Shown piece after piece: positions 13,178 to 45,938 of a stretch of DNA of 64,000 nt (the first letter of the stretch is position 1; every line of letters begins with the position of its first letter). Under the pieces are notes generated by a model. That model had not been told where the DNA came from. It saw only the letters and a list, made by a program, of their open reading frames with translations, and ran no database searches. The stretch is from IMG/VR virus record IMGVR_UViG_3300032299_001015, positions 20,402-84,401 of that record. One strand, written 5' to 3'. The position numbers were made by a program, and so were the translations under genes. The stretch is from a virus.

Positions 13178-16100
13178 TACCCAGCACTCCTACTATGATT
13201 TCTTCTACCGTTTGCTTGATTTATCATACTAATAACTTTATTAGCAATTGCGTTACTACTCTTTCCACCCGCACCATTAATAACAATATTTACTTTACTG
13301 GAATTCCTTACTGAAGAACTGTTAGATCCACCATAACTATTTGCAATGTTGGCGTTCATGCTTGAGGGGTTTATTGTCTCCACCTGGGGGACACCAAATG
13401 TTGGAGTAGCCGTAGACATAGATCCTACAAAACCACCACCAGCATATTTGGCGGGAGAAACCATTCTTGGAGCGGTAGTAGCAAGACCACCCATTCCAAA
13501 TTGTCCAGCATTAACCTGATCCATAAATCCTTTACCATATTTTGCAACAGATGATGCTTTAACTACATACTCTCCGTTAGAAAGCATTGCTGGAATCATA
13601 TCAGATCTTGGTCCGCCTGGTCCAGATACTGCTCCTCCCCCTGCGGAAAGTTTCATTATTCCGCCAGAAGCCTTATACTTCCATGAATTCCAAAAAGCAG
13701 CAGTCCTTGTTTCTGTAGCATCTGCCCAGGTTGGGCGGGGGTTATAGTAACTCCAGTCCCAAGAATAATTCCCATTATTATCCACCCTCATAGCCCACGG
13801 TAAGAAGTTTTTACCACTCTGAGATACATTCTTGTATGCAACGCTAGAGTTGTAAACTGGATCATTTAATATTTTATCATCTGATATCCACCACGGCTGG
13901 CTTCCATAACTTGGTTTATTTAATTGGAATATCCCATAATCACCTGTATCATAAATATTCCTGCCACCAGATTCTCTCATAGCAATAGACCATGCTAATC
14001 TTTGCAAGTTTGTGGGCCATCCTCCTGCACGGATATGTCCAAGAGTTCTATTAGCATCTTCTACAGTATATCCATCTGGAATATTAGAAAATTGTATATT
14101 TCCTGTTGGCTCATTAGTACTTCCGTTATTATTTGAATTAGACTGTTTATCAGAAACAGGCGTTCCAGCCATAGATAAAATTCCAAATAGTCCTTTTTTA
14201 GGAGCGGCAATCGATGGAGTTATCTGTACGGAAGAAGCGCCTGAGCCACCATTATTAGTTTCAGAAGTTTCTCCTCTATTAGTTTCAGAAGTTTCTCCTC
14301 CACCCTGCTCCCAGATTCTATCGGCATTTGATTGGTATAAACCAAGTGGGTATAAGGTGTCCCCTCTTTGTCCATTTGGCCTATTAGGTCCAGAGGCAGC
14401 AGCCCAGTCTTTATGGTTAATAATTTTTCCATCAAATGAAGGCCATCCAGCATACTCTTTAATTGCCGCACTCATTCTTGCAATGGTGTCAAACATCCCA
14501 GCGGTAAAGTCTTTTTTAAGACCTTGGGACTCTACCTCTATTTGCCAAAGTGTATTTGAGGCACCGCCTAGATTTTTAAGATCTTCTTTTAGTCCAGCGT
14601 ATTCTTTATTATTAAATATTTCTGCTGCATAAGATCCTTCTGTTCCTCCAGCGCCAGCGCCCCACCCAGTACCGCCATATGCAAGAATATGTGCTGTAGC
14701 GTCTCTACCAACCATAGCCTGGACGACGGGCTTCCCTGCTTCTGGATTTCTAGCCATCCATTCTAATACTCCTGGGCCAACACCAGCAGTATGATGCATC
14801 ATAATACCACTTGGCTTGCCCCCAGGCCATGACCCGTATTGGTCCCAACTAGAATAATATGACAGTCTATTCTTTGGTATCCATTTATCTAATGATTTCT
14901 TTAACTCTACTGGTCCACCATCAGCAAATTTTCCAGCATTGATAGTATCCATCATGTCTTTGCCGTACTTGCTTACACTAGAGGCTTGAACTACATATTC
15001 TCCGTTTGAAAGCATTGCTGGGATTACATCAGACTTGGGACCACCTGGACCAGAAATATAACCGCCATATGCTACATTTGGAAGATTTTTTTTGGGAATT
15101 GGTGGCAAGAAGGAAGAAAGTCCAAGTTTTCCTCTTAAGTCTTCATAACTACCGACTCCGCCATAGCCACTATTACTAGTAGGAGTGCCTCCAAAATATG
15201 CTGCTCCAAATAAATCATTATACATTTGTACTAATTGCTTTTCTGCATCAAGTCGCTCAATATCCCCAGCAGCAACTTGTTGTTTCAAAACTGCATCAAG
15301 TGAGGCAATTTGATTTTTAACTAAATCAGCGTATCTTTTTGCTAGTTGCTCGCCAAAAACTTTAGTTACTTCTTTGTAACTTTCAATTTCTCCGTTTTTA
15401 ATTCCATCAATTATATCTTTTGCCTCTTGATTCTTGCTAGATCTGTTTTCTAATCTTCTTTCCAACTCTTCATTATGCTTTTCAGTTTCATCGTCATAGT
15501 TCTTCATGTTGGTTTCGTGCATTTCAGATTCTTTATCCATTAAATCTTGAATTGAATCCATACGATCTTGCATCATCTTTTCATACTCTTCTTGTTCTTT
15601 TTGCTTTTCGCTTCTTGTTTCATCAATGGCTTCTAGTTCTAAATCTCTTCTTTCTTCAATTCCGCTAATTTGTTCATCATAGGAGAATTGTTGAGCATCC
15701 TGAGACATTTGTTCACGATCTTGCAGGAACCCAAATACATCTCCTGAAGCAAGTTTTTGCAAGGCTCCAAAAGCAGTATTTCTTTGTTGAGCGTAGAAAG
15801 AGTCGGCCTTCTGATTCTTTTGCAAAGATTTAATGTAAGCATCAGAAGACTTCTCAATCTTGTCAGATTTTTCATCTAACTGATCCATCTCTTCGTCAAA
15901 TGATTCCTTCTTGATATCCATCTCATCCTGCATTGCTTCAAGAGAATCCTCACGGGCCTTCTGTTCCAACTCAAAGTTCTCTTGAATAGACTCTTTCTCT
16001 TTCTCCCTAGACTTGGCATAACTTTCAATCTTATCTTGCATTTTATCCACAGATTCAGAGATATCATCCATGGCTATAGTAATTGGGGAAGAGTCTGCAA

Positions 16101-19100: not shown

Positions 19101-21003
19101 TAGATGTACTTAATTTTCTTAAAGAAGTTTCATATGCAGACATTACCCCAACAAGTCTCTTCATTGCTGTTTCTTGGGTTGTAAAAGATGCTGTAAGATT
19201 GTCTACTCCAAATTTTGCCGCCATAACCTCTGAGTTGAGAAGTTCAAATCTTTCAACTTTAAGGCCAGACATTCTAGCGCCAAGCCTAGTAACCATCATT
19301 CCAAATTTAAGGCCATTGGCAATTAAATTACCAAATAGACCAACCAACATAATAATTGGTCCTGCCAAAGCAGCAATAGCAACACCTAACTTGGCAAAGT
19401 TTTTAATTGGCCCTGGTAAATCTTGGAAGAATCCTGAAAATTTTTGAATGCCTTCGCCAATAAATGAAAGTATTGGAATCAATGTTTCTGTGAGGGCCTG
19501 ACCAATAGGCATGATTGCATTCTTTAAATCTTCCAAGGTTCTTTGGAATTTAACTGCGGTTGATTCTGTGAGAGTTTTAATTTCTTGATTTGCTACTGCC
19601 GCCAAATCAGTAGAACTTTTTGCCGCTAATTCTATTACTGATTGTGTCTGAGATCCTGTTCTTCCAATATTATCAAATAGAGCAGAAACTCTGGCAAACT
19701 GATACTTACCAAAAATTTGCTCAATTACTCTAGATCTTCCAAATTCATCCAGACCATCTAGAGCATTCTTCATAGCATAAATTGTGGGCATTAACTGGCC
19801 CTTATTTGCATCAACAATTCCTACTAAATCTATACCAAACTTCTTAGCCACCTCACTAGCCTGCTTTGTTGGATTAATCAGGGAGGCGAGGCCAGATTTT
19901 AATGCATTCGCTGCTTCTGCGGCTGGGATGCCACCCTCTCGCATAGCCACAAGTAGAGTTGCAAGATCTTTAACATCTCCACCTAAACTTCTAACTACTG
20001 GACCAACTTTAGGAATAGCAGTTGATAAATCTTGAAGAGTTGCAGATGTTTGGTTTTCAACAGCGTTAAGGAAGTTAATTGACTCTGCTAATTCATCTGT
20101 ATTAAGTCTGAATGCTGACTGCAGGGCAAGAGTTGCTTTCATTGCTTCTTGTCTATCTACTTCACCAAGGACCGCCAATCTAGTGGTTTGCTGGACAGAG
20201 TTAATCAGATCTTCGCCTTCTGCTCCAGTTGCAGCAATATCTGCAGCAAGAGCGGCAGTATCTTTAGCAGCGATTCCATAGGTACGAGATATTTCGTAAG
20301 CCAATTGTTGAATTTGTTCTCTCATGCGAGTAGTTGACTCACTAATTGCGCCACCAAGATCAGAACCATAAACCTTTTGGAACCTTGTCAATTCTTTGTC
20401 AAGGTCTCTGAACTGTTTAGAGGCTAAGGCTGTAAACATCGCCAAAGGAATGCTAAATCCAACCATCAGTTGGCGACCAGCCCACTGAGTATTTTTACCC
20501 CAGTTAAGCATAGATGTGGCACCGTTGTCAATTAGTTGATTGAAAATAGAAAATTTTTGAGCAGCCATTGCTGCAGAGTTTCCAGTAGCAGCAATAGATG
20601 TAGGGGTAAGCATCATCATCTGCCCACCGCCCATTGGCACAGAAACAGACTGCTGGTATCTAACTTGCTGTTGAGCAAGTTGCTTCATTAAACTATTTTG
20701 CTTTGTATATCCTGCAACTGCTTCACGGAATGACTCTCGCATAGTCAGGCGGTTGGCAGCAATTTGCTTACCAAAATTTTCTACGGCATTATGAGCCTGT
20801 ATTGTTTTAGCAGTAAATCCACCAATTTGTCCAACACCAGTAGCAAATGTTGCTGCTAGGCTTCTTTGCGCTGAAAGAGCAGATTTATCTAAGGTGTTAA
20901 AGGCAGCACTTAAAGCGCTAATCTGACCAGTAAGTGCTTTAATTTGAGCCTGGGCAGGAGAAAGGTTCGCGTTATATGTAATAACTGAATTAATATTAGC
21001 CAA
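13177..21003 (-). CDS. Tape measure protein with amidase and lysozyme-like domains
   Basis: A 2608-residue protein, the largest gene in the window. The N-terminal part has the TP901-type tape-measure look (MREQIQQLAYEISRTYGIA, LKSGLASLINPTKQASEVAKKFG). A glycine/alanine hydrophobic segment lies near 1200-1310, and a long charged coiled coil (KEKESIQENFELEQKAREDS region) near 1650-1850. Near 2060-2170 is an N-acetylmuramoyl-L-alanine amidase-like domain (GIMMHHTAGVG, TAHILAYGGTGWGAG, INHKDWAAASGP). Near 2340-2430 is a lytic-transglycosylase/lysozyme-like domain (WSIAMRESGGRNIYDTGDYGIFQLNKP). A motif of the form IPAMLxxGEFVV recurs three times, near 674, 1988 and 2464, flanking these parts. The protein sets tail length and probably opens the cell wall during DNA entry. 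Its start overlaps the end of the chaperone gene by 8 bases. Confidence 0.95.
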   Translation of the reverse strand: MANINSVITYNANLSPAQAQIKALTGQISALSAAFNTLDKSALSAQRSLAATFATGVGQIGGFTAKTIQAHNAVENFGKQIAANRLTMRESFREAVAGYTKQNSLMKQLAQQQVRYQQSVSVPMGGGQMMMLTPTSIAATGNSAAMAAQKFSIFNQLIDNGATSMLNWGKNTQWAGRQLMVGFSIPLAMFTALASKQFRDLDKELTRFQKVYGSDLGGAISESTTRMREQIQQLAYEISRTYGIAAKDTAALAADIAATGAEGEDLINSVQQTTRLAVLGEVDRQEAMKATLALQSAFRLNTDELAESINFLNAVENQTSATLQDLSTAIPKVGPVVRSLGGDVKDLATLLVAMREGGIPAAEAANALKSGLASLINPTKQASEVAKKFGIDLVGIVDANKGQLMPTIYAMKNALDGLDEFGRSRVIEQIFGKYQFARVSALFDNIGRTGSQTQSVIELAAKSSTDLAAVANQEIKTLTESTAVKFQRTLEDLKNAIMPIGQALTETLIPILSFIGEGIQKFSGFFQDLPGPIKNFAKLGVAIAALAGPIIMLVGLFGNLIANGLKFGMMVTRLGARMSGLKVERFELLNSEVMAAKFGVDNLTASFTTQETAMKRLVGVMSAYETSLRKLSTSNPALFVPGVAPAPRGAVPIRRQAGSTRPEFVPGSGRGDKIPAMLEPGEFIVNRAATEKYAPVLMQMNRGTLKGYENGGGTSRLAHLTRSVTVPITSAMDSATSGARRVLQQMLADGITEVKLFNNLVVSLSKATNDALNTEVEGKGVKKSILAAELKDRERWSLMMKATGLSFDQLQPTITGITSAMARLEGELINDPQLYRLVEAELVKLSNAGDIAAQRLLALSKQYGTVEYLRTNEGKERPGRMALGVSTSGTGTYKGSRLAADSWARKSTVDLERALDEGVVRAIQSSSPSKKADSIGEKAGKNIGNGAIIGLERGLRIATSKQVRTGPIGPGLESRSTATVYQREENARKLLEKALIKETQQTGLIADTKQRIVVQQKQHNIVLANWTKDLETGRWVHKDGTVAGTKRAAALDKLAQEESLLAAEEKKLRDIISIRERAERNAANAAESKAIAEKQLNQSIVKRSVQEGTMFTPGSYLMGGVSPYAASGANRPSRFGDISMDQRKALAAQRREAYLNNVGPGKSLTDARGSGGMRGAGAMNAAMGASMLASTVTMFSGATSEASSKIMMFTTALTTAIFALQAFSGTGIGGGIVGGVKKMGGGMAGLGARATAAAAGRGALTAGLLGGGGKALTGIGGALAGGGAAAAGTVAAVAIPLVITAAGLYMYKKSLDEAKEKANAAFAEPAKTAEFFGKTIDSLGSALENIQAAGASKELSSINSELRMAVSEDYAGLIEKLKTSVTTVGAADLGAAYTKMIISGMSAQEAQDAIKAISAEAGYKGGIAFASAFSNGLLEAKTIEEAYQQTVDNISPESVAGQQTAASEAMRQQAIDNPGLYGRSTPQVASRNFKNVLAGGPEFVQALKSSIEISQTAPELVAQNLDKIRESYLALNEDAGDILGMGTSAREMAFDEFKNMMGELDDPVINQLLDQLQNSTAETQALAIQMTALGVPLTEAKNAAGQFDDALARAAIENASRLATLNAALDDTKQALLDFADSSPITIAMDDISESVDKMQDKIESYAKSREKEKESIQENFELEQKAREDSLEAMQDEMDIKKESFDEEMDQLDEKSDKIEKSSDAYIKSLQKNQKADSFYAQQRNTAFGALQKLASGDVFGFLQDREQMSQDAQQFSYDEQISGIEERRDLELEAIDETRSEKQKEQEEYEKMMQDRMDSIQDLMDKESEMHETNMKNYDDETEKHNEELERRLENRSSKNQEAKDIIDGIKNGEIESYKEVTKVFGEQLAKRYADLVKNQIASLDAVLKQQVAAGDIERLDAEKQLVQMYNDLFGAAYFGGTPTSNSGYGGVGSYEDLRGKLGLSSFLPPIPKKNLPNVAYGGYISGPGGPKSDVIPAMLSNGEYVVQASSVSKYGKDMMDTINAGKFADGGPVELKKSLDKWIPKNRLSYYSSWDQYGSWPGGKPSGIMMHHTAGVGPGVLEWMARNPEAGKPVVQAMVGRDATAHILAYGGTGWGAGAGGTEGSYAAEIFNNKEYAGLKEDLKNLGGASNTLWQIEVESQGLKKDFTAGMFDTIARMSAAIKEYAGWPSFDGKIINHKDWAAASGPNRPNGQRGDTLYPLGLYQSNADRIWEQGGGETSETNRGETSETNNGGSGASSVQITPSIAAPKKGLFGILSMAGTPVSDKQSNSNNNGSTNEPTGNIQFSNIPDGYTVEDANRTLGHIRAGGWPTNLQRLAWSIAMRESGGRNIYDTGDYGIFQLNKPSYGSQPWWISDDKILNDPVYNSSVAYKNVSQSGKNFLPWAMRVDNNGNYSWDWSYYNPRPTWADATETRTAAFWNSWKYKASGGIMKLSAGGGAVSGPGGPRSDMIPAMLSNGEYVVKASSVAKYGKGFMDQVNAGQFGMGGLATTAPRMVSPAKYAGGGFVGSMSTATPTFGVPQVETINPSSMNANIANSYGGSNSSSVRNSSKVNIVINGAGGKSSNAIANKVISMINQANGRRNHSRSAG

Positions 21004-31458: not shown

Positions 31459-31839
31459 TCAATTCCAGTCAATATCTGATCCAGACTTAGCATATGATTT
31501 TGATGATAGTAATAGGTCTTTACCAATATGTTGAGCCTTTACCTCAAAAGAATATTTTCTTTCCCCGCTATTTGTATCTATCCATGAAGTTTCTTTAATA
31601 ACTCCATTAACAATTACTTGCTCCCCGCGATTAAATTCACCAGCAATATTTTCTGCCAGCCGATCCCAAGCAGTAATATTCCAGCCAGATGTATCATGGT
31701 CTTCCCACTCACCAAAGGCATTCTTACGGCGGTCATTAGTAATTAGTCTAAATCTTGCTACTGACGTTCCACTCGGCAGAGTCTTAAACTCTACATCATT
31801 TGCCACTCTACCAATTAAAGTAATATTAGGGTTAGACAT
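31459..31839 (-). CDS. ssb: Single-stranded DNA-binding protein
   Basis: A 126-residue OB-fold protein. It has the SSB family pattern: MSNPNITLIGRVANDVEFK, then SVARFRLITNDRRKN, SGWNITAWDRLAENIAGEF and GEQVIVNGVIKETSW, followed by a short acidic tail ending SDIDWN instead of the usual DDIPF-type tip. It covers single-stranded DNA during replication and repair. An early-type gene in the late block is odd; its ATG overlaps the stop of the glycosyltransferase gene, so it is co-transcribed with the glycan-modification genes. Confidence 0.93.
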   Translation of the reverse strand: MSNPNITLIGRVANDVEFKTLPSGTSVARFRLITNDRRKNAFGEWEDHDTSGWNITAWDRLAENIAGEFNRGEQVIVNGVIKETSWIDTNSGERKYSFEVKAQHIGKDLLLSSKSYAKSGSDIDWN

Positions 31840-32801
31840 TATTCTCCTTCCGTTAAAATTTCAAAAAGTCTATTCCATTCTTTTGCTCTACGCTCCCAGT
31901 TATAATACTTATTGAAGTAGTCTGACTGTTCGCGTATTAATTCTTGATTATCTTTTGTCCAGTAATTATCTATTTGTTCGTTAAGAAGTTCTGCATATGT
32001 ATTAGCGATTTGCTCTTCATTTGGTTTAATTATACACATTTTTGCATATGCTGCACCAGTTTCTGGTAAAGCCCCGACATCAGTAGTAACTAAGTTACAT
32101 CCTGCTGCGCCTGCCTCAATCATTGACAAGCAGGCGGTTTCTTCAAAAATGCTAGGGTAGGCAAATATGTGAGCATCTTGTACTGCTTTATGAATTTCAT
32201 TATTTTCGGCGTACCCAATGTAATTGACACCTTTTGTCTCACGGGCGCGATTGAATAGATCTTCATATACCCCATAATAATGTGCCTCGTAGCCTGATCC
32301 ATATACAGAAGTTGATGAATATACATCTAACTCAATATCATCGCGGTCAAGTTGCTCCATAACATCTAGCAAAATGCTAAGACCCCTAAATGGAGTTGAT
32401 GTGTAAATTAACTTTAACTTGCCACCTTTTGATTTTGGTTTAAATTCTATTGGTTCTATGGCATTACGAATAACATATGCATTATGAAGCGGAACCTGAA
32501 AGAGATACCTAAATTTCTCTAGTTGCCAATGTGACACATAAACTGTTGCATCAATAGACTTCATAAAAGCATTATCCTTCATTGGAGCAAGAGACTCATC
32601 TGAATAGTTTAGATGCTGCCATAAAATATTCTTTTTAGTAAATCTAACTTTAGATGGGTCTGGAGTTGCAACTAATAAATTTAAATTATCATACTCTGAA
32701 AATTTAGAATGTTTTATCATTCCGTCTTTTAGTAATTCCGTCCCGCCTCGTGCAGGCTTTACGTTGCTGTCATTAGAAATTCTTTGTAACCAATCAGCCA
32801 T
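31839..32801 (-). CDS. Glycosyltransferase, family 4-like (GT-B)
   Basis: About 320 residues. The open frame reaches a TTG at 32873, but a GGAG site precedes the ATGs at 32804 and 32801, so 32801 (MADWLQRISNDSN) is chosen. The GT-B nucleotide-sugar half is clear: KLKLIYTSTPFRGLSILLDV (first strand of the C-terminal domain), FAYPSIFEETACLSMIEAGAAG with the E-x7-E motif, and GCNLVTTDVGALPETG. It transfers a sugar from an activated donor; the acceptor is unknown. Lies first among three sugar-handling genes with a sulfotransferase, between SSB and a DUF6065 gene. Confidence 0.85.
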   Translation of the reverse strand: MADWLQRISNDSNVKPARGGTELLKDGMIKHSKFSEYDNLNLLVATPDPSKVRFTKKNILWQHLNYSDESLAPMKDNAFMKSIDATVYVSHWQLEKFRYLFQVPLHNAYVIRNAIEPIEFKPKSKGGKLKLIYTSTPFRGLSILLDVMEQLDRDDIELDVYSSTSVYGSGYEAHYYGVYEDLFNRARETKGVNYIGYAENNEIHKAVQDAHIFAYPSIFEETACLSMIEAGAAGCNLVTTDVGALPETGAAYAKMCIIKPNEEQIANTYAELLNEQIDNYWTKDNQELIREQSDYFNKYYNWERRAKEWNRLFEILTEGE

Positions 32802-32823
32802 CATCTTCTCCAAATTTTTGCAC

Positions 32824-33543
32824 TCACAGGTAACTCTTCTTACTCCAGAATTGACTCTTATATGATCTAACAATTTTAGACTTTAACTTAAAACCATTTT
32901 TTTTATTGGCATCCTCATCAAACTCTACCTGTGATGATCTCCAGTCCTCTCTTTTGAAAGGAATCATTTGACATATGGGAGTCCCTGCTTCAAGAACAAA
33001 AATCTCTTCTTTGATTGTGTTAAGAAGTTGGAAGGGAAATTCGACTCCTAGTTCATAGGAGTCTGTATCTACCACCCCAGAAAAAGTTCTGAATGGAAGG
33101 TCGTGTCTATTAAGTGGGTGAGTGAATAAACAACTATAGCCCTTGGGGGTTATTGCCCTCCAGCCAGGACTCCATTTAAGTAAATCCATTCCGCCACCTA
33201 CTGGAGCAGGCAGCCCAGGAGCCTGATCTGGACCGTGAGAGCCTATAAAATTAACATTGGTTGCCCACCGCACATTAATTCCTTTTCCTGGATGATTTCT
33301 AAATTCTAGGTCGAATGGCAGAACAAACATATATCCAGATGTGAGTGCATCAAGGAACGGGGAGCATCCCTTAAGAGTAAGATTGCTTACCGCTACTCCG
33401 TTTTTTGATAACCCAGTTATTTTTTCGCCGTCCATATGAACAGGCATCTTTTTATACCAGCCTGGGATAGACTGTGCTGCTGGCTGCGGCCTTTCAAACA
33501 GAAGTTCTGCCTCATGACTGAATGGCTCAAATTTTATCTTCAT
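32824..33543 (-). CDS. DUF6065-like protein
   Basis: About 239 residues from ATG 33543 (MKIKFEPFSHEAELLFERP). It contains the features I associate with DUF6065, a family common in phages: ERPQPAAQSIPGWYKKMP, then LKGCSPFLDALTSGYMFVLP, then WATNVNFIGSHGPDQ and a C-terminal LEAGTPICQMIPFKRE. The last strand-helix strand resembles a cupin-like or jelly-roll fold. The enzymatic role, if any, is not known. It overlaps the upstream glycosyltransferase gene and precedes the GT4 gene, so the four genes look like one pathway. Confidence 0.7.
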   Translation of the reverse strand: MKIKFEPFSHEAELLFERPQPAAQSIPGWYKKMPVHMDGEKITGLSKNGVAVSNLTLKGCSPFLDALTSGYMFVLPFDLEFRNHPGKGINVRWATNVNFIGSHGPDQAPGLPAPVGGGMDLLKWSPGWRAITPKGYSCLFTHPLNRHDLPFRTFSGVVDTDSYELGVEFPFQLLNTIKEEIFVLEAGTPICQMIPFKREDWRSSQVEFDEDANKKNGFKLKSKIVRSYKSQFWSKKSYL

Positions 33544-34211
33544 GGCTTTACCCAATTCAACTTAAATGTCTTTTGATGTAGAACTCTTACAGATGGGTCT
33601 ACCCAAATGTCAAATCCTGACTTGATCGCTTTTGTACACCATGAAAGGTCTTCTCCAATAAGAAGGAAATCTTCAGTTGTTTCCCCTGTTTCTTCATCTA
33701 CACTAGGAACGCTTTCTGGTCCAAACCAGGGTCTGGGCATATTCTCAAATACCCCTGATTTTACTGCAAGGAATCCAAATCCACATCCTGCTACTTTAAA
33801 AGGCTTATGATACTGATCAAGAAGTTCTTCTGGCATCATACCGCCGCGAGGTTGTTGATAAATCGGAATGTGTCTGTCTTCCATGAGATAGCATCCAGAA
33901 ATAATTTTCTTATCAGACTTATATAGTCTAAAAACGTCGGCGGGACTCCATGCAATATCTGAATCAATCCACATAATCATGTCATAGGTAAATTCACCGC
34001 TACATGGCTGAGTCATTTTTACATTATTTGTATCGTATCCACCAATGGTTGACTCTCTAGCCATGGCAACAAGTGACCCCCCCTGACTAAGAAAATTCCA
34101 ACTTACCCCCTCTTGATTCAGGGCATTAGTAGTAATAAGCAGACTTCTTAGATAGTCTGGAGTAAAAGAATTTGCTGGAGTAGCAAATACTATATTAAAA
34201 TGCGGTTTCAT
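33540..34211 (-). CDS. GT-A type glycosyltransferase-like protein, copy 1
   Basis: A 223-residue protein starting MKPHFNIVFATPANSF. A DxD-like metal motif lies in the sequence MIMWIDSDIAW (about 72-82), followed by a conserved GCGFGFLAVKSGVFE block, the GEDLSWCTKA signature and a closing RVLHQK. This resembles the Anp1/GT-A type transferases found in many phages. It is paralogous to the next gene (about one third identical by eye, same motif order). The sugar and acceptor are unknown. It is joined to its neighbours by overlaps. Confidence 0.75.
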   Translation of the reverse strand: MKPHFNIVFATPANSFTPDYLRSLLITTNALNQEGVSWNFLSQGGSLVAMARESTIGGYDTNNVKMTQPCSGEFTYDMIMWIDSDIAWSPADVFRLYKSDKKIISGCYLMEDRHIPIYQQPRGGMMPEELLDQYHKPFKVAGCGFGFLAVKSGVFENMPRPWFGPESVPSVDEETGETTEDFLLIGEDLSWCTKAIKSGFDIWVDPSVRVLHQKTFKLNWVKP

Positions 34212-34871
34212 TTATCCCCTTATAGCGATCTTCTTATGATGACATACTTTTATGCTGGGGTCAAGATAAATTTTATATCCTGCTTCCCCCGCTTTTTTGC
34301 ACCAGGAAAAATCTTCTCCCCAAGGTATATACATCTCTTTAGTTTTATCTTCATTCTCTATTTTTTGAAATACTACGTCGAACCATGGGCGAGGAATATT
34401 TTCAAATACCCCAGATTTCATTGAAACAAATCCGAATCCTACTGCAAAGACCTCAAACGGGTATTCTTTTCTTTTTAATAAGTCGTGGTCAAAATAAATA
34501 TCGTCTTCTTTGAAACTAAAGAGCGGTACGTTTTCTTCATTATAGTAGACTCCAGAAACTACATCGTATGACGATTCGTACAACTTCATAAATTGATCTG
34601 GTTCCCAAGAAATATCTGAGTCTATCCAAACTATTTTGTCATACGTTACCTGACTGTTTACTGGTTCTGTGGCAAAAGCATGAAGAAAACGTGATCCCAT
34701 TATTGTTGCTTCCCGCGCTGCATTTACTTGAGAGGAATACTCATTTAGATATAAATAAGATATGCCTATTTTTTCTAAATGGGAAATAGTTGCAACAAGA
34801 CTTCTTACATATTCTGCCTCCATCATTCTTCCAGGAGTGCAAATTAATACATTATAGTGGGGCTTCAACAT
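34212..34871 (-). CDS. GT-A type glycosyltransferase-like protein, copy 2
   Basis: A 219-residue paralog of the neighbouring gene: MLKPHYNVLICTPGRMM start, KIVWIDSDISWEP metal motif, FAVGFGFVSMKSGVFE and WGEDFSWCKKAGEAGY, ending CHHKKIAI. The duplication suggests two successive transfers or two acceptors. It directly abuts copy 1 and overlaps the sulfotransferase gene by 20 bases, so sugar addition and sulfation are probably coupled. Virion or cell-surface glycan modification is inference. Confidence 0.75.
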   Translation of the reverse strand: MLKPHYNVLICTPGRMMEAEYVRSLVATISHLEKIGISYLYLNEYSSQVNAAREATIMGSRFLHAFATEPVNSQVTYDKIVWIDSDISWEPDQFMKLYESSYDVVSGVYYNEENVPLFSFKEDDIYFDHDLLKRKEYPFEVFAVGFGFVSMKSGVFENIPRPWFDVVFQKIENEDKTKEMYIPWGEDFSWCKKAGEAGYKIYLDPSIKVCHHKKIAIRG

Positions 34872-35682
34872 TCCTCCAAAACTCTAATCCATTATATTTA
34901 TTAAGAATATAAGGTGAAAGATATTCACCAATATTTATTCTACGATGCTCAATTGATTGGCGAACGTTGTGTAACCCTTCAATACCGTAGATTCTATCAT
35001 CTTCTGGGGTTATATTAACTATTTTATTATAGTTATGATCAAAGTATTCTAGGCCAAGGAAGTCATAGATGCCCTTGATAGTTTCATCTGTCCTGCCAAC
35101 CAAATTGTCATACTCAACAATGTGAAAATATTGTCTATTTTCTTCTAGCATCGCATAGGCAATTCCATACAAACACTCATCAATAAGTCCTTTTGGACGC
35201 ATCAAATGGTCACATCTAATTTCATCAGGATGGCGGTAGTAATAAAACTCCTGCCTTGCTTCTATTTCCTGATCAATAAATGAAGTCTTCTGTGGATTTT
35301 GATTAATCATATAGATAAAAGAGGCAAGAATTTCATTTATGTTTCTCACCGTCAAAATTACCTTAGGGTCATAGGGGAGATTTCTTAGTAGTGTTCCAAA
35401 GTTTTCTTTTGTTGACCATGATCGTGACTTATCAATAATATTAGGCTTATTTATATCTGAATAATAATTTTCTAGTACCCCATAAACCGTGGGAGAAATG
35501 ACATGAGGTTTTGGGTATGCATTATATTGTTCAGACGCTAAAATACTACGTTCAAGATTAACCATCATCCCACACATGGGGGAGTTTGGTCCTGAATAAA
35601 TTTCTGGGTTTTGATTTAAAATTGATGATAAAAGTGTGCTTCCAGACCTTGGAAGGCCGGAAAGAAAATAAAACTTACTCAA
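34852..35682 (-). CDS. Sulfotransferase (PAPS-dependent)
   Basis: A 276-residue protein that starts at a TTG (MSKFYFLSGLPRSGSTLL). The first segment is the PAPS-binding P-loop (residues 9-17, GLPRSGSTL) and a later VRNINEILASFIYMI is the second phosphate-binding helix of sulfotransferases. The length matches the family. It moves a sulfate from PAPS to a hydroxyl or amine on a sugar, peptide or lipid. Grouped with glycosyltransferases, so a sulfated glycan is a plausible product. No other sulfur genes are visible, so the donor must come from the host. Confidence 0.88.
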   Translation of the reverse strand: MSKFYFLSGLPRSGSTLLSSILNQNPEIYSGPNSPMCGMMVNLERSILASEQYNAYPKPHVISPTVYGVLENYYSDINKPNIIDKSRSWSTKENFGTLLRNLPYDPKVILTVRNINEILASFIYMINQNPQKTSFIDQEIEARQEFYYYRHPDEIRCDHLMRPKGLIDECLYGIAYAMLEENRQYFHIVEYDNLVGRTDETIKGIYDFLGLEYFDHNYNKIVNITPEDDRIYGIEGLHNVRQSIEHRRINIGEYLSPYILNKYNGLEFWRNVEAPL

Positions 35683-35695
35683 TGGTTTTTCCTAT

Positions 35696-38600
35696 CTACT
35701 CTAGGCCAATTATATCATTTACAGTTGATGCAGATACAGGAATTGTGACGGTAGTCCATATAGTTAAATCAGTAGACGAATATACAGCATTAGTTCCTTG
35801 AATTTGATAGGTGCTGCCAAATTTTGCCATTTTTTGTAGGGAATCATTAATTAAAGAATAGGGCAAAGAAGTTCTTAATTTTCCTGTGTTTCCTCCTGCA
35901 ATCCATAGGCCGTTGCCGTAGGCTACGGAGCGGATTAAGGTAGTTCCAAAGTTAGAAGTTTGGGTTGTCCAGGTCACGCCATCGGTGGAGGTGCGAAGTT
36001 GCCCTTGCTCTGCTGATGCTATCCATATGCCATTGCCATAGGCTATGGAGTGGATGGTGGTGTTGCCAAAGTTAGAGTTTTGGGTGGTCCAGGCAACACC
36101 ATTAGTGGAGGTTCTTAGTTGTCCTGCAACGCCTCCTGCTATCCATAGGCCGTTGCCGTAGGCTACGGAGCGGATGCTGGTGCTACCAAAGTTAGAGGTT
36201 TGGGTTGCCCAGGTTATGGTGTCGGTGGACGTACGGATTTGGCCTGTGTATCCGCCTGCTATCCATAGACCGTTGCCATAGGCTACGGATTGGATTTGGG
36301 TGTTGCCAAAGTTAGAAACTACTGATACCCAGGTTGTATTATCTGTAGATGTTGAAATATTTCCTAAAGTAGTTACTATCACCCACCTATTACTATTATG
36401 TGACACAGATGTAATACCGTTTGTAGTTAATCTATCTTCTCCGTCCCAGGTTACGCCATCGGGGGAGGTACGGAGTTGACCTGTGTAGCCTCCTGCAATC
36501 CATAGGCCGTTGCCGTAGGCGACGGAGAGGATCATGCTGTTGCCAAAGTTAGAAGTTCGGGTAGTCCAGGTCACGCCATCGGTGGAGGTGCGGATTTGGC
36601 CCGTTAATCCGCCTGCTATCCATAAGCCGTTGCCATAGGCTACGGAGCGGATGTTGGTGTTGCCAAAGTTAGAAGTTCGGGTTGTCCAGGTAGTGCCATT
36701 GGTGGAGGTACGGAGGGTGCCTGTGTATCCTCCTGCAATCCATAGGCCGTTGCCATAGGCTACGGAGAGGATAGCGGTACCGCCAAAGTTAGAAGTTCGG
36801 GTAGTCCAGGTCACGCCATCGGTGGAGGTTCTCATTTGGCTATCGCTGCCTGACACTATCCATAGGCCGTTGCCATAGGCTACGGAGAAAATGGTGTTGG
36901 TAGAGCCAAAGTTAGAGGTTCGGCTAGTCCAGGTAGTGCCATCGGTGGAGGTTCTCAATTGGCCTCCGCTACTTCCTGCTATCCATAGGCCGTTGCCATA
37001 GGCTACGGAGTAGATAGGATTGCTCCCAATAAAGCCAGAAGTTTGGGTAGTCCAAGTAACGCCATTGGTGGAAGTGCGGATTTGGGCACCTTCCCCTACT
37101 GCTATCCATAGGCCGTTGCCATAGGCTACGGAGCGGATGTTGGTAGCGCCAAAGTTGGAGGTTTGGGTAGTCCAGGTTGTGCCATTAGTGGAGGTGCGGA
37201 TTTGGCCTGTTAATCCGCCTGCTATCCATAGACCGTTGCCATAGGCTACGGAGTAGATTGCGGTGGTACCAAAGTTAGATGCTATTCCACTAGTTCCAAT
37301 ATTAAAGTTTACTGTATTCCAAGTAATGGTGTCTGTGGAAGTTCTACCCTGACCACTATACGCACCTGCTATCCATATGCCATTGCCATAGGCTACGGAG
37401 TAGACGCTGACGCTGCCAAAGTTAGAGTTTTGCGTAGTCCAGGTTACGGTATCGGTGGAGGTGCGGATTTGACCTGCACTTCCTACTGCTACCCATAGAC
37501 CGTTGTTATATCCTACGGAGAATATTACACTATTTCCAAAGTTAGAGGTTTGCTCTTTCCAAGTAGCACCTTGAATTCCCCCAGATGAAGAACTAGCGAA
37601 TACTTGAGTGACCCATGTACTTCCATCTGTTGACCGCCAAAATGTTCCAGAATTTACAACGGCAAAAGCGGTGGAAGCAGTAGAAAACATTCCATTTACC
37701 GCCGTTGGTCCAGATACTGTTGTCCAAGTTTCTGCATTTGTTGAACTTAAAGTAGATGATGCTGATGAAAAGGCGTAAAAAGAATTATTGAAAGAATGTA
37801 ATTTATAGTTATTTGGCAATATTGATGAGTTTTCAGAGGTGCGGAGTTGTCCGGTGCTGCCTCCTGCTATCCATAGGCCGTTGCCATAGGCTACGGAGTT
37901 GATGTTAGTGGCACCAAAGTTGGAGGTTTGGGTAGTCCAGGTTACGCCATCGGTGGAGGTACGGATTTGTCCTGTGTATCCGCCTGCTATCCATAGGCCG
38001 TTGCCATAGGCGACGGAGAGGATGTTAGTGCTGCCAAAGTTGGAGGTTTGGGTGGTCCAGGTTGTGCCATTGGTGGACGTACGGATTTGTCCTGCGTAGC
38101 CCCCTGCAATCCATAAACCGTTGCCGTAGGCTACGGAGGCGATGGTGGTGTTTAAGTTAGAGGTTTGCGTGGTCCAAGTGACGCCATTGGTGGAGGTTCT
38201 TAATTGGCCTGCGTTACCTCCTGCTATCCATAAGCCGCTGCTATAGGCTACGGAGCGGATGATATTGAAACCAAAGTTAGAGGTTTGTGTTGTCCAGGTT
38301 ACGCCATTGGTGGAGGTGCGGATTTCTCCGTCGCCTCCTCCTGCAATCCATAGGCCGTTGCCATAGGCTACGGAAAAGATTCCGAGGATGTTGGTGATAC
38401 TAAAGTTAGAGGTTTGGGTAGTCCAGGTTACGCCATCGGTGGAGGTTCTCAATTGGCCGCCGGAGGCTCCTGCAATCCATAGGCCATTGCCATAGGCTAA
38501 GGAGCGGATGGTGGTGTTGCCAAAGTTGGAGGTTTGGGTTGTCCAGGTGACGCCATTGGTAGAGGTTCTCAGTTGTCCTGAAAGACCTCCTGCAATCCAT

Positions 38601-38920
38601 AGGCCATTGCCATAGGCTACGGAGTTGATGGTGGTGCTACCAAAGTTAGAGTTTTGGGTGGTCCAGGAAACTCCTAATCTATTATATATAGTATTAAATG
38701 TTCCTAAAGATTGTGTTGCTTGAAGTGATCTTAGAACTACTCCATTACTCAATACAGCCGACCAAATGTTATTAGCATAAGCAATAGAAGAAATACTTCC
38801 ACTAGTAACGGCGGGGGAAATAAAGGTAGTGCTATTGGTAGCATCTGGATCAAGGTTTATTGTTGCACTTGACCAAGTAATGCTATTTGTAGAATATCTA
38901 ATTTCTGTCATTTTAATCAC
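35696..38920 (-). CDS. Giant beta-propeller repeat protein 1
   Basis: A 1074-residue protein consisting largely of about 20 copies of a repeat of roughly 38-40 residues, of the form RTSTNGVTWTTQTSNFG followed by an IRSVAYGNGLWIAGG strand. TSTDGVTWTT is a variant Asp-box (SxDGxTW) of the sialidase/BNR type, one per blade. Copies fall into groups of about 7, 9 and 4, separated by degenerate spacers, consistent with stacked seven-bladed propellers. No signal peptide. Lies in the fibre block, so a receptor-binding or adhesion role is inferred. Confidence 0.8.
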   Translation of the reverse strand: MIKMTEIRYSTNSITWSSATINLDPDATNSTTFISPAVTSGSISSIAYANNIWSAVLSNGVVLRSLQATQSLGTFNTIYNRLGVSWTTQNSNFGSTTINSVAYGNGLWIAGGLSGQLRTSTNGVTWTTQTSNFGNTTIRSLAYGNGLWIAGASGGQLRTSTDGVTWTTQTSNFSITNILGIFSVAYGNGLWIAGGGDGEIRTSTNGVTWTTQTSNFGFNIIRSVAYSSGLWIAGGNAGQLRTSTNGVTWTTQTSNLNTTIASVAYGNGLWIAGGYAGQIRTSTNGTTWTTQTSNFGSTNILSVAYGNGLWIAGGYTGQIRTSTDGVTWTTQTSNFGATNINSVAYGNGLWIAGGSTGQLRTSENSSILPNNYKLHSFNNSFYAFSSASSTLSSTNAETWTTVSGPTAVNGMFSTASTAFAVVNSGTFWRSTDGSTWVTQVFASSSSGGIQGATWKEQTSNFGNSVIFSVGYNNGLWVAVGSAGQIRTSTDTVTWTTQNSNFGSVSVYSVAYGNGIWIAGAYSGQGRTSTDTITWNTVNFNIGTSGIASNFGTTAIYSVAYGNGLWIAGGLTGQIRTSTNGTTWTTQTSNFGATNIRSVAYGNGLWIAVGEGAQIRTSTNGVTWTTQTSGFIGSNPIYSVAYGNGLWIAGSSGGQLRTSTDGTTWTSRTSNFGSTNTIFSVAYGNGLWIVSGSDSQMRTSTDGVTWTTRTSNFGGTAILSVAYGNGLWIAGGYTGTLRTSTNGTTWTTRTSNFGNTNIRSVAYGNGLWIAGGLTGQIRTSTDGVTWTTRTSNFGNSMILSVAYGNGLWIAGGYTGQLRTSPDGVTWDGEDRLTTNGITSVSHNSNRWVIVTTLGNISTSTDNTTWVSVVSNFGNTQIQSVAYGNGLWIAGGYTGQIRTSTDTITWATQTSNFGSTSIRSVAYGNGLWIAGGVAGQLRTSTNGVAWTTQNSNFGNTTIHSIAYGNGIWIASAEQGQLRTSTDGVTWTTQTSNFGTTLIRSVAYGNGLWIAGGNTGKLRTSLPYSLINDSLQKMAKFGSTYQIQGTNAVYSSTDLTIWTTVTIPVSASTVNDIIGLE

Positions 38921-40830
38921 CGCCTACAAAATATGAAATAAAAGAACCTGCTGATGCAGAGGTTCTCAGTTGGCCTGCGTTACCTACTGCTATCCATAGA
39001 CCGTTGCCATAGGCTACGGAGTTGATGTTAGTGGCACCAAAGTTAGAGGTTTGGGTGGTCCAGGTGACGCCATTGGTGGAGGTGCGAAGTTGCCCTTGCT
39101 CTGCTCCTGCCATCCATAGACCGTTGCCATAGGCTACGGAGCGGATGGTGGTGTTGCCAAAGTTGGAGGTTTGGGTAGTCCAGGTTACGCCATCGGTGGA
39201 GGTACGGATTTGTCCTGTGTATCCGCCTGCTATCCATAGGCTATTGCCATAGGCTACGGATCGGATGTTGGTGCTACCAAAGTTGGAGGTTTGGGTGGTC
39301 CAGGTTACGCCATTGGTGGAAGTGCGGATTTCTGTGTATCCGCCTGCTATCCATAGGCTATTGCCATAGGCTACGGAGCGGATGGTGGTGTTGCCAAAGT
39401 TGGAAGTTTGGGTGGTCCAGGTTGTGCCATTGGTGGACGTACGTAGTTGGCCTGTGTTTCCTCCTGCTATCCATAGGCCGTTGCCATAGGCTACGGAGCG
39501 GATGGGGGTAGCGCCAAAGTTAGAGGTTTGTGTGGTCCAGGTAACGCCATTGGTAGAGGTGCGTATTTCTCCTGTGTTACCTACTGCTATCCATAGACCA
39601 TTGCCATAGGCTATGGAGAATATGTTGGTAGCGCCAAAGTTAGAGGTTTGGGTTGCCCAGGTTATGGTGTCGGTAGAGGTACGGATTTGTCCGGCGTAGC
39701 CTCCTGCAATCCATAGGCCATTGCCATAGGCTACGGGGAAGATATTGGTATTGCCAAAGTTAGAGTTTTGAGTAACCCAAAAAACTCCAGCAGGTTGAGT
39801 ATCACCTCCACCATATTCTACAACTTTAATATTTCCTGTCATTCCTGTATTTACTGAAGTCCAAGATGTTAAATTGGTGGAGGAGAATAATTTTCCATCG
39901 TCCGCCGCCACAAATGTAGTAGATGCTGATGGGATATATTCTATGTCGTTTATTGGGGAATATGCTGATGTATATGTCTGAGGTGAAGTTATAATTTGGC
40001 CTGCGAATCCTCCTGCAATCCATAGGCCGTTGCCATAGGCGACGGAGAGGATACGGGTCGCCCCAAAGTTAGAGTTTCGGGTTGTCCAGGTAACGCCATC
40101 GGTGGAGGTACGGATTTGGCCTGTGTATCCGCCTGCTATCCATAGGCCGTTGCCATAGGCGACGGAGAGGATGGTAGTGCTGCCAAAGTTGGAGGTTTGG
40201 GTGGTCCAGGTGACGCCATTGGTGGACGTGCGGATTTGTCCAGACCGTCCTCCTGCTATCCATAGGCCGTTGCCATAGGCTACGGAGTTTATGTTGGTGC
40301 TACCAAAGTTGGAGGTTTGGGTGGTCCAGGTAGTGCCATCGGTGGAGGTACGGAGTTGTCCGTATTCGCCTCCTGCAATCCATAGGCCGTTGCCATAGGC
40401 GACGGAGAGAATGGCGCTTTCGAAGTTGGAGGTTCGCGTGGTCCAGGTAGTGCCATCGGTGGAAGTGCGGATAGCGATGGACAAAAATTCTGGGGTGCCT
40501 CCTCCTGCAATCCATAGGCCGTTGCCATAGGCTACGGAGTTGATTTGGGTGTTGCCAAAGTTAGACGTTCGGGTTGTCCAGGTAGTGCCATCGGTGGAGG
40601 TGCGGATTTGTCCTGTGTATCCGCCTGCTATCCATAGGCCGTTGCCATAGGCTATGGAGTTGATGGTGGTGTTGCCAAAGTTAGACGTTCGGGTTGTCCA
40701 GGTAGTGCCATTGGTGGACGTACGTAGTTGGCCTGTGGTTCCTCCTGCTATCCATAGGCCGTTGCCATAGGCTACTGAGCGGATGATGGTGGTACCAAAA
40801 TTAGAGTTTTGTGTGGTCCAGGTAACGCCA
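35880..40830 (-). repeat. About 34 tandem DNA repeats of roughly 115-120 bp
   Basis: The coding repeats of both propeller genes are nearly identical at the DNA level, each holding a core such as ATCCATAGGCCGTTGCCAT and CCAAAGTT on the plus strand. Units are more GC-rich than the spacers and the flanking genes. Their sameness, despite encoding long proteins, points to recent duplication and possible gene conversion. Unit count was made by eye and may be off by one or two. Confidence 0.85.
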
Positions 40831-41006
40831 GTATTTGCGGGGTCTGGAGTAGTTCCCTGTCCAGTATTAAATCCAGATATTTGAGCGGTAGTGTTAGTTG
40901 AATCAATAGAATAAAGAAGGCCAGATGAGGTGCCAAAGAGGAACTGTCTTACCCCCGCCGATATTTTTTTAGAACTAGAAAGAATACCTACCCAAATACC
41001 ACTCAT
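38913..41006 (-). CDS. Giant beta-propeller repeat protein 2
   Basis: A 697-residue protein with about 14 copies of the same repeat as its neighbour, in two runs of seven separated by a diverged unit. Seven repeats of about 40 residues fit a seven-bladed propeller, so two complete propellers are predicted. It begins MSGIWVGILSSSKKISAGV. The overlap with the next gene is eight bases upstream of it and four bases with the fibre gene, so the three genes are one operon. Possibly a paralog produced by recombination across repeats. Confidence 0.8.
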   Translation of the reverse strand: MSGIWVGILSSSKKISAGVRQFLFGTSSGLLYSIDSTNTTAQISGFNTGQGTTPDPANTGVTWTTQNSNFGTTIIRSVAYGNGLWIAGGTTGQLRTSTNGTTWTTRTSNFGNTTINSIAYGNGLWIAGGYTGQIRTSTDGTTWTTRTSNFGNTQINSVAYGNGLWIAGGGTPEFLSIAIRTSTDGTTWTTRTSNFESAILSVAYGNGLWIAGGEYGQLRTSTDGTTWTTQTSNFGSTNINSVAYGNGLWIAGGRSGQIRTSTNGVTWTTQTSNFGSTTILSVAYGNGLWIAGGYTGQIRTSTDGVTWTTRNSNFGATRILSVAYGNGLWIAGGFAGQIITSPQTYTSAYSPINDIEYIPSASTTFVAADDGKLFSSTNLTSWTSVNTGMTGNIKVVEYGGGDTQPAGVFWVTQNSNFGNTNIFPVAYGNGLWIAGGYAGQIRTSTDTITWATQTSNFGATNIFSIAYGNGLWIAVGNTGEIRTSTNGVTWTTQTSNFGATPIRSVAYGNGLWIAGGNTGQLRTSTNGTTWTTQTSNFGNTTIRSVAYGNSLWIAGGYTEIRTSTNGVTWTTQTSNFGSTNIRSVAYGNSLWIAGGYTGQIRTSTDGVTWTTQTSNFGNTTIRSVAYGNGLWMAGAEQGQLRTSTNGVTWTTQTSNFGATNINSVAYGNGLWIAVGNAGQLRTSASAGSFISYFVGGD

Positions 41007-43733: not shown

Positions 43734-45422
43734 TTATGCATCTATTGCAGTACGGACTGCCTTAATTATAATATTTGTAGATGCAGCATCTGGAGATGAA
43801 CCCGTTAATGATACTGTTCCGCCAGATTCGGTAGCGCTAAATGTTAGATTGGCAGCACCTGTTGCAGCATCCATTATTGAGTATTCTGATAGTGAAACAT
43901 CTGTTCCATCCCACATAACAAGAATCTTTTCTACTGTCATTTTTGTACCCTGCTTTGCTCTTATCGTATATTCAGCGGTGGTGAATGAAGAGACAGCAAA
44001 AGTATCAATTGTTGTTGGGGTACTATTTGCTGTTATTGTGGCGGAAGAAGAAGTAATTCTGCCTTCTGGTAGGTCTACACCAGCAAATGTAGGAGTTGAT
44101 GTAGTAGCAATATTTTGTGGAAGGCTAAGTACAACAGATGCACTTTCTACACCAGATCCTGCGACCAAAATTTGGCTTGGCGTGCCATATATGCCATCAA
44201 CATAGTTGCCTGTGGTATCTGTTCCAAGAGCAATAGAATTTGCAGCAATAGTAAGAGCAATACTTGCACTATCAAGATTGGATACAGTTCCTGTACCAGT
44301 AACATCACCTGTAAAAACAAGATTAAAATCTTTTTCTACAGTTGCAGTCAGTGTACCAGAACCTAGATCTGTTAACGTTACATTGCCTGAAAGGTCTCCA
44401 CCTAGAGTTATTGTTGGACTTGGCTTGCTAAGAATATCTGCCCATTCGACATTGGCATCAATCGTTCCTTTAGTTCCACTAAAAACTTCAGATGAATTAG
44501 TAGCATCTGGAATAAAGGTAAACTTGCCACTAGAATCGTCAAAACCAAAGAATCCAACTTTTGCAGAAGTTCCATTATGGTATCTAAATTCAATGCCGCG
44601 ATCTTTATTGTCATCTAAAGTTGGAGCGGTATCTCCACCAAGAGTAAAGATTGGATCATCAATAGTAACTACTGTTGAATTAATAACTACTGTAGATCCT
44701 GAAATAACAAGATTTTCACCAACAGTTAGTGATCCCGCAATAGTTACATTATCTGGAAGACCAATTTGAATATTTCCAGTTGAGGCTGATACAGTAATTT
44801 CATTAGCCGTTCCAGAAACAGATTGAACTCCAGACATTCCAAGAAGTTCAAGTACTGAGTAACCACCTAGATATTGTGAGTTAAGGTTATTAACCTGTAC
44901 AGATGATGAAACTACTAGTGGTGCGCCTGTAAGAGCAGTTGAAGTAATGGTATTGAAGGATACATTTGCTGAAGTGGCTACGTCCTGACCAATTGATATT
45001 GCTGATACAGCACCTTCTCCTGCTGAAGAAGATACAGAAACACCTGTTCCTGCAGAAATTCCAGCAATATAGTTTCCAGTTGTATCTGTACCTAATGCAA
45101 TAGAATTTCCTGCAATTGTAGTAGCAATAGAAATTTGACCATTTCCAAGATTTGTAAGTGTGGCACTAGCAGCACCAGTAATGTCTCCAGTTAATTCAAC
45201 ACCAATTACTGGATCAGGGACATTAGTAATATTATTGAAATCTAGGTAGTAAGAACCATGATTACCGTCTAAAAGATCGGCAGAAAGGTTGCCAACGTTT
45301 GCAGAAGATGTAACAGTAAACGGTGGAAGTGAAGATGTAGTGGATACAATCTGGACGCCTTGAACATTAGCGCCAGCCACCACACCATTCTTAACAACAA
45401 AGTCTTTATTTACAGTAGCCAT
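43734..45422 (-). CDS. Tail fibre protein with exchange-prone C-terminal domain
   Basis: A 562-residue protein with the same start motif as the previous gene (VNKDFVVKNGVVAGAN), an LLDGNHGSYY fibre signature and a central S/T/G-rich shaft. The last 105 residues (TPTTIDTFAVSSFTTAEYTIRAKQGTK, VMWDGTDVSLSEY, IKAVRTAIDA) form a domain also found as the second half of the 158-residue gene upstream. I recognise this domain from T4-like cyanophage virion proteins. It is thus a portable receptor-binding or capping domain. Confidence 0.8.
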   Translation of the reverse strand: MATVNKDFVVKNGVVAGANVQGVQIVSTTSSLPPFTVTSSANVGNLSADLLDGNHGSYYLDFNNITNVPDPVIGVELTGDITGAASATLTNLGNGQISIATTIAGNSIALGTDTTGNYIAGISAGTGVSVSSSAGEGAVSAISIGQDVATSANVSFNTITSTALTGAPLVVSSSVQVNNLNSQYLGGYSVLELLGMSGVQSVSGTANEITVSASTGNIQIGLPDNVTIAGSLTVGENLVISGSTVVINSTVVTIDDPIFTLGGDTAPTLDDNKDRGIEFRYHNGTSAKVGFFGFDDSSGKFTFIPDATNSSEVFSGTKGTIDANVEWADILSKPSPTITLGGDLSGNVTLTDLGSGTLTATVEKDFNLVFTGDVTGTGTVSNLDSASIALTIAANSIALGTDTTGNYVDGIYGTPSQILVAGSGVESASVVLSLPQNIATTSTPTFAGVDLPEGRITSSSATITANSTPTTIDTFAVSSFTTAEYTIRAKQGTKMTVEKILVMWDGTDVSLSEYSIMDAATGAANLTFSATESGGTVSLTGSSPDAASTNIIIKAVRTAIDA

Positions 45423-45461: not shown

Positions 45462-45938
45462 TTATAAGTTTATTATTGTTCTGAAAAATTTGACAACTGC
45501 GGAAGAAGTATCTCCATCCGATATCAAGCATGACAATAGTGTATTGGGACCAGAAATATCAGCAGAGAGAACATAAGCAATGCTTCCACCCATCTCCACC
45601 TTGCCGTATTCTGATATCCCCGCATTTGTACCATCATGCAGAACAGTAGATTTTACATTTGTATACTTAGCCCCTTGGCTAATTTGTATATTATACTCTG
45701 CACTTCTATAGGCACTGGCAGAAAAAGAGTCTATTGTGGTTGAAAGATTAGTATTGATATTAATTACGGCAGAAGAATGAGATGTTTGACCAAACTTAAC
45801 TCCACCAAAAATAGGAGAATCAGTAGTCTTAACCCCTTGGTCCAAATAACCATCATGAACCGACAACGTATCTCTAAGATCATTGTGATCTTGTAAATGT
45901 CCAGATTGTCCATGGTCCCTAATGGGAGGGATAGCCAT
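45462..45938 (-). CDS. Short fibre-like protein sharing a C-terminal domain
   Basis: A 158-residue protein. The first half (PPIRDHGQSGHLQDHNDLRDTL) is helical and charged; the second (TTIDSFSASAYRSAEYNIQISQGAK, VLHDGTNAGISEYGKVEM, VKFFRTIINL) is homologous to the C-terminal domain of the adjacent 562-residue fibre. A GAGGAG ribosome site precedes the ATG. It could be a trimming or capping subunit that completes fibre tips. Function is inferred. Confidence 0.7.
   Translation of the reverse strand: MAIPPIRDHGQSGHLQDHNDLRDTLSVHDGYLDQGVKTTDSPIFGGVKFGQTSHSSAVININTNLSTTIDSFSASAYRSAEYNIQISQGAKYTNVKSTVLHDGTNAGISEYGKVEMGGSIAYVLSADISGPNTLLSCLISDGDTSSAVVKFFRTIINL

Follow-up and report, generated by a model that had tools for sequence, protein, structure and literature searches.

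Seven-bladed propeller modules and a likely two-chain framework encoded by adjacent repeat genes of a phage

Results

Two adjacent repeat genes and their parts

The IMG/VR virus record IMGVR_UViG_3300032299_001015 (84,401 bases) carries in its tail and fibre gene block two adjacent giant genes whose proteins consist largely of 40-residue repeats. We analyzed positions 20,402–84,401 of this record, a stretch of 64,000 nucleotides (nt) hereafter called the window, and compared it with related contigs and loci, which are labeled by L-numbers (L005, L036, L108 and others). The repeats are organized as modules of seven, each with the makeup of a complete seven-bladed beta-propeller, and these modules appear to be inserted in the loops of one diverged, seven-bladed framework propeller that is likely divided between the two proteins. 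The evidence for the anatomy of the modules and for their turnover between related phages is strong.

The initial annotation of this DNA counted 14 repeats in the smaller protein (7 + 7) and 20 in the larger (7, 9 and 4), and both counts hold. A looser search adds one diverged blade between the nine and the four, giving 14 blades in that region, and the orthologous region of L001/L036 is scored by our repeat hidden Markov model (HMM) as a single run of 14. Tandem Repeats Finder gives the arrays scores of 491–1122, far above chance, and consecutive blades have the high mutual identity by which highly repetitive beta-propellers are defined. The repeats had been called near-identical, which is apt for the protein and not for the DNA, as non-corresponding repeats of the window and L036 average 76.5% nt identity and the codons of conserved residues have diverged synonymously. 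The window repeats carry the motif SxDGxTW or SxNGxTW, one residue shorter than the Asp-box (BNR) motif SxDxGxTW; the eight-residue form is present in the relatives L016 and L045. A Pfam scan of 41 modules and segments returned mainly DUF6242 and kelch models, with WD40_like in one member and BNR in 1 of the 41. We took the Pfam kelch, PaaD and XtrA matches and the NCBIfam fosX match as noise arising from repeat composition.

An assembly artefact is an unlikely source of the repeat number, since the longest exact repeat inside the array (85 nt in the window; 97 nt in L036) is shorter than an ordinary read, and since four contigs, each from a different metagenome record, agree at 100% identity over an array of the L006 type in a related phage. 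The array was first described as unusual, but a single IMG/VR scan found 308 related stretches, and modules of this kind are not a rarity among phages. The two genes and their parts, in which the assignments to the framework are predicted, are as follows.

38913–41006, − strand: small propeller open reading frame (ORF), 697 residues (aa); 14 regular repeats at a spacing of 40 aa, two runs of seven
35696–38920, − strand: large propeller ORF, 1074 aa; 20 regular repeats in runs of 7, 9 and 4
40830–41006, − strand: predicted framework blade 1, strands b, c and d, at the small-protein N-terminus (strand a, VNDIIGLE, lies at the large-protein C-terminus); from the L005 alignment and an empty-site comparison with L036
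39978–40829, − strand: module A, seven repeats, with linkers PDPANTGV...ITSPQ; absent from L036
39795–39977, − strand: predicted framework blade 2 and strand a of blade 3; from the framework alignment and strands 10–41 and 51–54 of the segment modeled with AlphaFold2 (AF2), at low to middling confidence (predicted local distance difference test, pLDDT)
38952–39794, − strand: module B, seven repeats, in the a–b hairpin of predicted framework blade 3; seven four-stranded blades in the AF2 model
38913–38951, − strand: predicted framework blade 3 strand b (SFISYFVGGD) and the stop codon; the GGD codons form the Shine–Dalgarno (SD)-like GGCGGTGAT of the next gene, as they do in L036
38681–38911, − strand: ATG start of the large protein, then predicted framework blade 3 strands c and d and blade 4
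37835–38680, − strand: module C, seven repeats, after framework blade 4; the module at this site is replaced between L005 and L006
37580–37834, − strand: predicted framework blades 5 and 6; 95–100% nt identity with L036 in most 60-nt steps
37310–37579, − strand: module D, first two blades (stable propeller); positional orthologues in L036 97–98% identical (nt)
36446–37285, − strand: module D', seven repeats, apparently nested in module D, following its second blade and preceding its third; identity with L036 by position is about 83% (D: 91–98%)
35867–36445, − strand: module D, remaining five blades (one diverged plus four); positional orthologues in L036 91–98% identical (nt)
35696–35866, − strand: predicted framework blade 7 and the closing strand a of blade 1; site F is empty here and holds an extra seven-repeat module in L036

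Seven-repeat modules as predicted self-contained propellers

That the repeats fold into propellers had been proposed from the letters of the DNA, and structure prediction bears this out for module B. AF2, given residues 345–697 of the small protein and 41 in-register rows, returns a model with a mean pLDDT of 82.5 (mostly 84–97 within the module) that contains seven four-stranded blades (7 × 4). VIA-align superimposes this model on the seven-bladed designed protein 7big (Z 32.5 over 271 residues, root-mean-square deviation 2.2) and on the repetitive propeller 2ymu (Z 31.7). With Foldseek, the best natural match is Ycf48 (TM 0.64/0.73), designed propellers also rank at the top, and the matches among viral models are phage BNR-repeat, tail-fibre, baseplate and outer-capsid proteins; a shared fold with any of these shows no function. 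Modules A, C, D and D' have repeats of the same kind and number as B. The strand order of a module is d-(abcd)x6-abc, that is, seven a-b-c groups and seven d strands, and its two ends lie together because the first strand (d) completes the last blade (a-b-c).

The count of seven recurs among the relatives. Complete, non-redundant runs recognized by the repeat HMM in viral contigs have a length of 7 in 62 of 100 cases, 14 in two and 21 in two; the other sizes are 4–6, 8–10 and 18–20, of which only part can be explained, such as the run of 8 in L005 and another in L006, each of which is a module together with a neighbouring framework blade. One phage contig (L013:3–12094) has six genes with one or two seven-repeat modules each, eight in total. 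The 2986-aa open frame of L136 has scattered runs of 4–8 repeats and matches the seven rule poorly. Weaker relatives of the modules, with a best identity of 44%, occur on bacterial and archaeal contigs (L057–L090), where 2 of 15 runs were scored as 7 by the phage HMM, which may miss diverged blades. Finally, two giant genes of L037 (4778–8776 and 10835–14719) encode about 48 kelch-like repeats (YGWFAGG...DRIDFSNDSP) and adjoin a homologous sulfotransferase gene, with no trace of window-type repeats; this is an analogous multi-propeller array made from another blade type.

A likely framework propeller divided between two genes

When the modules are removed from both genes, the pieces that are left resemble single blades. 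Joined across the two genes, these pieces align in order with the leftovers of a single 1731-aa ORF in L005–L010, at 29% identity in a MAFFT alignment with the L005 framework (BLASTP, one comparison: 25% over 291 columns, E 3e-10). The alignment gives seven framework blades, with the division between the genes inside blade 3, between strands b and c. L036 shares the two-gene division, whereas L005–L010 have one ORF. A search with the framework only found, for the window version, L036 alone among viral contigs and, for the L005 version, 11 loci; annotated phages gave no match. At the gene boundary the small protein ends ...FISYFVGGD* and the large protein most likely starts MTEIRYSTNSITW... at the ATG at 38911 (TAA-A-ATG, preceded by GGCGGTGAT) and not at the GTG chosen by the ORF caller. 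A programmed frameshift between the two ORFs was considered and rejected in favour of re-initiation, which is simpler because the large ORF has its own ATG with the SD-like GGCGGTGAT.

The groups of 9 and 4 in the large gene, which might be taken for odd-sized propellers, are accounted for by the same principle. Blades 8, 9 and 17–21 of this gene keep clear positional partners in L036 (91–98% nt) and blades 10–16 do not, which suggests that D (2 + 1 + 4) is one stable seven-bladed propeller interrupted by the seven repeats of D'. The initial annotation is supported in its reading of variant Asp-box propellers, with seven blades per module, in a tail/fibre gene block. The two genes, however, appear not to be two separate propeller strings but to share one diverged seven-blade framework with modules in its loops. 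Judged from sequence, this framework ring and its assembly from two chains are likely.

The strongest alternative has no nested ring: every run of seven would be a domain of its own, strung along a linear stalk, and the framework pieces would be linkers and decayed blades. We consider this unlikely, though more probable than any other alternative below. Tandem strings without nesting do seem to exist, as in L037, whose kelch-like repeats form eight successive groups of six, and module B is the only one with a confident model. Against this reading, each leftover piece has the strand pattern of a blade and keeps its order in the single-ORF homologue, some modules sit inside a blade (B in the window; within blade 7 in L005 and L108), and D is split by D' with both of its parts conserved as one unit.

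Modules turn over between related phages

The initial annotation suggested that the array could change by repeat gain and loss. It does vary between related phages, but the unit of change is the whole propeller, together with replacement within modules, and not the single repeat. The flanking genes of the window and L036 are about 95–98% identical, most single steps around the array reach 97–100%, and the framework and D are conserved; module A is present only in the window and module F only in L036. By position, modules B, C and D' are 81–83% identical (nt) in the two phages, compared with 91–98% for the D blades and with the 76.5% of non-corresponding repeats. A second comparison, of L005 and L009 with L006, L007, L008 and L010, shows all pieces of the gene to be 97–100% identical except module C, at 83%.

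A shared pair of linkers, PDxxNTG upstream and TSPQ downstream of the module, is found at a different framework site in each of three phages: around A in the window, around F in L036 and around a module of L108. Module F of L036 is slightly nearer to L108/L110 (71.3%) than to the window modules (70.0%). In L013, L004 and L022 a module of the same type is inserted in the loop of a beta-domain that is uninterrupted in the window ORF at 45462–45938. Given their gain, loss and replacement and their shared linkers at different sites, and their presence in a fibre domain as well, the modules behave as cassettes, and recombination is the simplest inference for the source of their movement and variation.

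Variation is concentrated on one face of the propeller

Amino-acid change among the repeats of the hypervariable modules (window and L036) is concentrated at positions 15, 17, 19, 33 and 34 of 40, with exchanges at positions 4 (V/T), 2 (N/D) and 37 (I/L). In the model of module B the five variable positions lie before or at the start of strand a, in the d–a loop, and in the b–c turn; the d–a loop and b–c turn of a propeller belong to the same face. In these repeats the ratio of non-synonymous to synonymous differences (pN/pS) is 1.26 at the five positions (bootstrap 1.13–1.45) and 0.26 elsewhere, an uncorrected pairwise measure on recombining repeats that hints at positive selection and does not prove it. 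These positions are also prominent in three other phage groups, in an approximate comparison in which no D-type blades were set aside. Runs of concordant positions are longer than in permuted columns (P 0.003 and 0.005), which points modestly to exchange between repeats.

It is also conceivable that this is neutral repeat instability, with arrays that expand, shrink and homogenise by recombination and variation that has no adaptive role. Repeats of high identity do recombine unaided, and the window and L036 differ by whole modules. We nevertheless regard a purely neutral origin as somewhat less probable than the linear stalk: amino-acid change is concentrated on one face, at five of the 40 positions, and the variation at conserved positions is synonymous. 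The approximate comparison of the other phage groups points to these five positions as well, and the reading frame and the count of seven are preserved.

Gene neighbourhood

The 84,401-base record has structural genes for a siphovirus-type portal, protease, capsid, tape measure and tail proteins. The portal shares 52% identity with its counterpart in Streptomyces phages such as Karimac, which makes an actinobacterial host plausible. Upstream of the portal on the − strand lie, in order, a block of fibre-like ORFs, the 697-aa and 1074-aa propeller genes, a sulfotransferase-family gene and sugar-transferase-like genes. The sulfotransferase and glycosyltransferase-like genes that follow the propeller genes (31839–35682) are both kept in L036 and L108. 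A C-terminal beta-domain is common to the fibre-block ORFs at 43734–45422 and 45462–45938, and it is one loop of this domain that holds the propeller in L013, L004 and L022.

34852–35682, − strand: sulfotransferase-family gene directly downstream of the propeller genes (Pfam PF13469, E 4e-15); kept next to them in L036 and L108
45462–45938, − strand: fibre-block ORF, beta-domain without interruption; the homologous domains of L013, L004 and L022 hold a seven-repeat module at the loop SEYGKVEMGG^SIAYVLSADISG

Elsewhere, a perfect two-copy tandem repeat of 24 bases lies at 14253–14300, within the tape-measure gene. Scans for promoters and terminators gave output no higher than on shuffled sequence.

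Discussion

A proposed recombining surface protein built from propellers

We propose that each of the two genes probably encodes half of a single large surface protein of the virion. This protein would most likely be associated with the tail, serve in receptor recognition (or adhesion) and be diversified by recombination and propeller turnover. Seven diverged blades, 1 to part of 3 from the small protein and the rest of 3 to 7 from the large one, would form the framework propeller. Self-contained seven-bladed propellers of 28 strands would be plugged into its loops, one of them into another plug, and each would present a hypervariable face made of the d–a loop and b–c turn. Recombination between such similar copies could reshuffle and homogenise repeats within modules and lead to the gain, loss or replacement of whole propellers, while closure of the ring would hold the count at seven and selection would preserve the strands and diversify the face. 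Receptor recognition is a plausible inference, and the ligand may be a host glycan or protein.

Two further alternatives concern function and mechanism. Asp-box propellers include glycosidases, and one of the best structural matches of module B is to a seven-bladed enzyme, virginiamycin B lyase (VIA-align Z 32.2), although a shared fold shows no function; in this reading the propellers would break down the host surface as lyases or as glycan-cleaving, sialidase-like domains. This seems improbable for seven near-identical blades with one variable face and no obvious single, asymmetric active site; Pfam BNR matched 1 of 41 members, and Foldseek ranks Ycf48, a binding protein, first among natural structures. 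It is very improbable that the array is the target of a diversity-generating retroelement (DGR), in which a reverse transcriptase (RT) mutates the variable codons: like a DGR target, this protein of the fibre block varies at no more than a few codons, but these codons are not a clean adenine-derived set, the variation extends across 35 copies that have also diverged synonymously, and no RVT_1 match was found across the 84 kb record, which may be incomplete.

Several observations weigh against the proposal of a two-chain surface protein. Some related proteins have runs of 5, 6, 8 or 9 repeats that are explained in part. Position 4 (mainly V/T) also varies and lies outside both loops, the pN/pS value is a hint of selection, and the effect in the mosaic test is modest. 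The sole confident model covers module B and its edges; an AF2 model of the whole small protein, built from relatives aligned end to end, reached a pLDDT of 37, probably with misaligned repeats, and was discarded. Sequence logic and conservation are the grounds for proposing the framework ring, for closing it across two chains and for nesting D' in D, and the virion location is suggested by the gene neighbourhood and by domain sharing with fibre-block proteins.

A broader possibility, which we advance tentatively and with less confidence than the proposal itself, is that phages possess an RT-free diversity generator, in which plug-in seven-bladed propeller cassettes with a hypervariable binding face move among framework loops, fibre domains and phages and recombine; the product would be a combinatorial protein for receptor recognition, with a split ring shared by two chains. 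With self-contained modules, and with close relatives that differ in single ones, the role of a propeller in host recognition could be put to a direct test. The locus would also offer a natural series of propellers within propellers, and of a framework split between two genes.

Comparison with known systems

Highly repetitive propellers, Asp-box and viral ones included, are already known. In the highly repetitive data set surveyed by Pereira and Lupas 2022 (PMC9218822), about 5% of the members are of the Asp-box type, viral members are found, and WD40-type blade numbers peak at 7 and 14. The propellers described there and those in the window have in common recently amplified, near-identical blades; here, in contrast, the modules appear to sit in loops of another propeller or of a fibre domain and turn over whole between close relatives. 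A word search of PMC9218822 found no mention of phages or of "inserted", "nested" or "recombination". In the papers covered by a limited literature search we saw neither modules of this sort inserted into another propeller nor any report that they turn over in phages, and a text search for propellers inserted in propellers, which says little, returned nothing.

Ycf48, a photosystem II assembly factor, is alike in having seven blades and gives a weak profile match (E 0.001), and a phage homologue (DSL-LC01) is annotated as Ycf48/photosystem II assembly factor. Its blades, however, are diverged, it forms a single propeller, and nothing here points to its photosynthetic function. The repetitive propeller 2ymu and the designed WRAP, Tako and Ika propellers share the fold and the high internal symmetry, but are WD40-type or designed and have no insertion architecture. 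The BACON-repeat and DGR-diversified tail proteins of phages (crAss-like phages; tentaclins) are also fast-diversifying surface proteins; they have other folds, and DGRs use another mutational mechanism, with no RT found in the 84 kb record.

A parallel in principle is with the HNWD (HET-D/HET-E/HET-R) WD40 receptors of Podospora anserina (PMC1805685, PMC2873952), whose near-identical repeats undergo concerted evolution within and between genes and have four diversifying codons, in the d–a loop and b–c turn on the top face. In the window, positions 15, 17 and 19 and positions 33 and 34 lie in the corresponding loop and turn. The families are unrelated: theirs are WD40 repeats in fungal NLR (NOD-like receptor)-type receptors, while here Asp-box-type repeats of a phage form seven-blade cassettes in a framework, no NACHT model is among the Pfam hits of either window protein, and the 41 modules and segments match mostly DUF6242 and kelch. 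The resemblance is thus one of analogy, not homology. If our proposal is correct, phages would have a means, parallel to the fungal HNWD receptors, of changing what their surface recognizes in which entire protein rings, and not individual residues, are exchanged and reshuffled.

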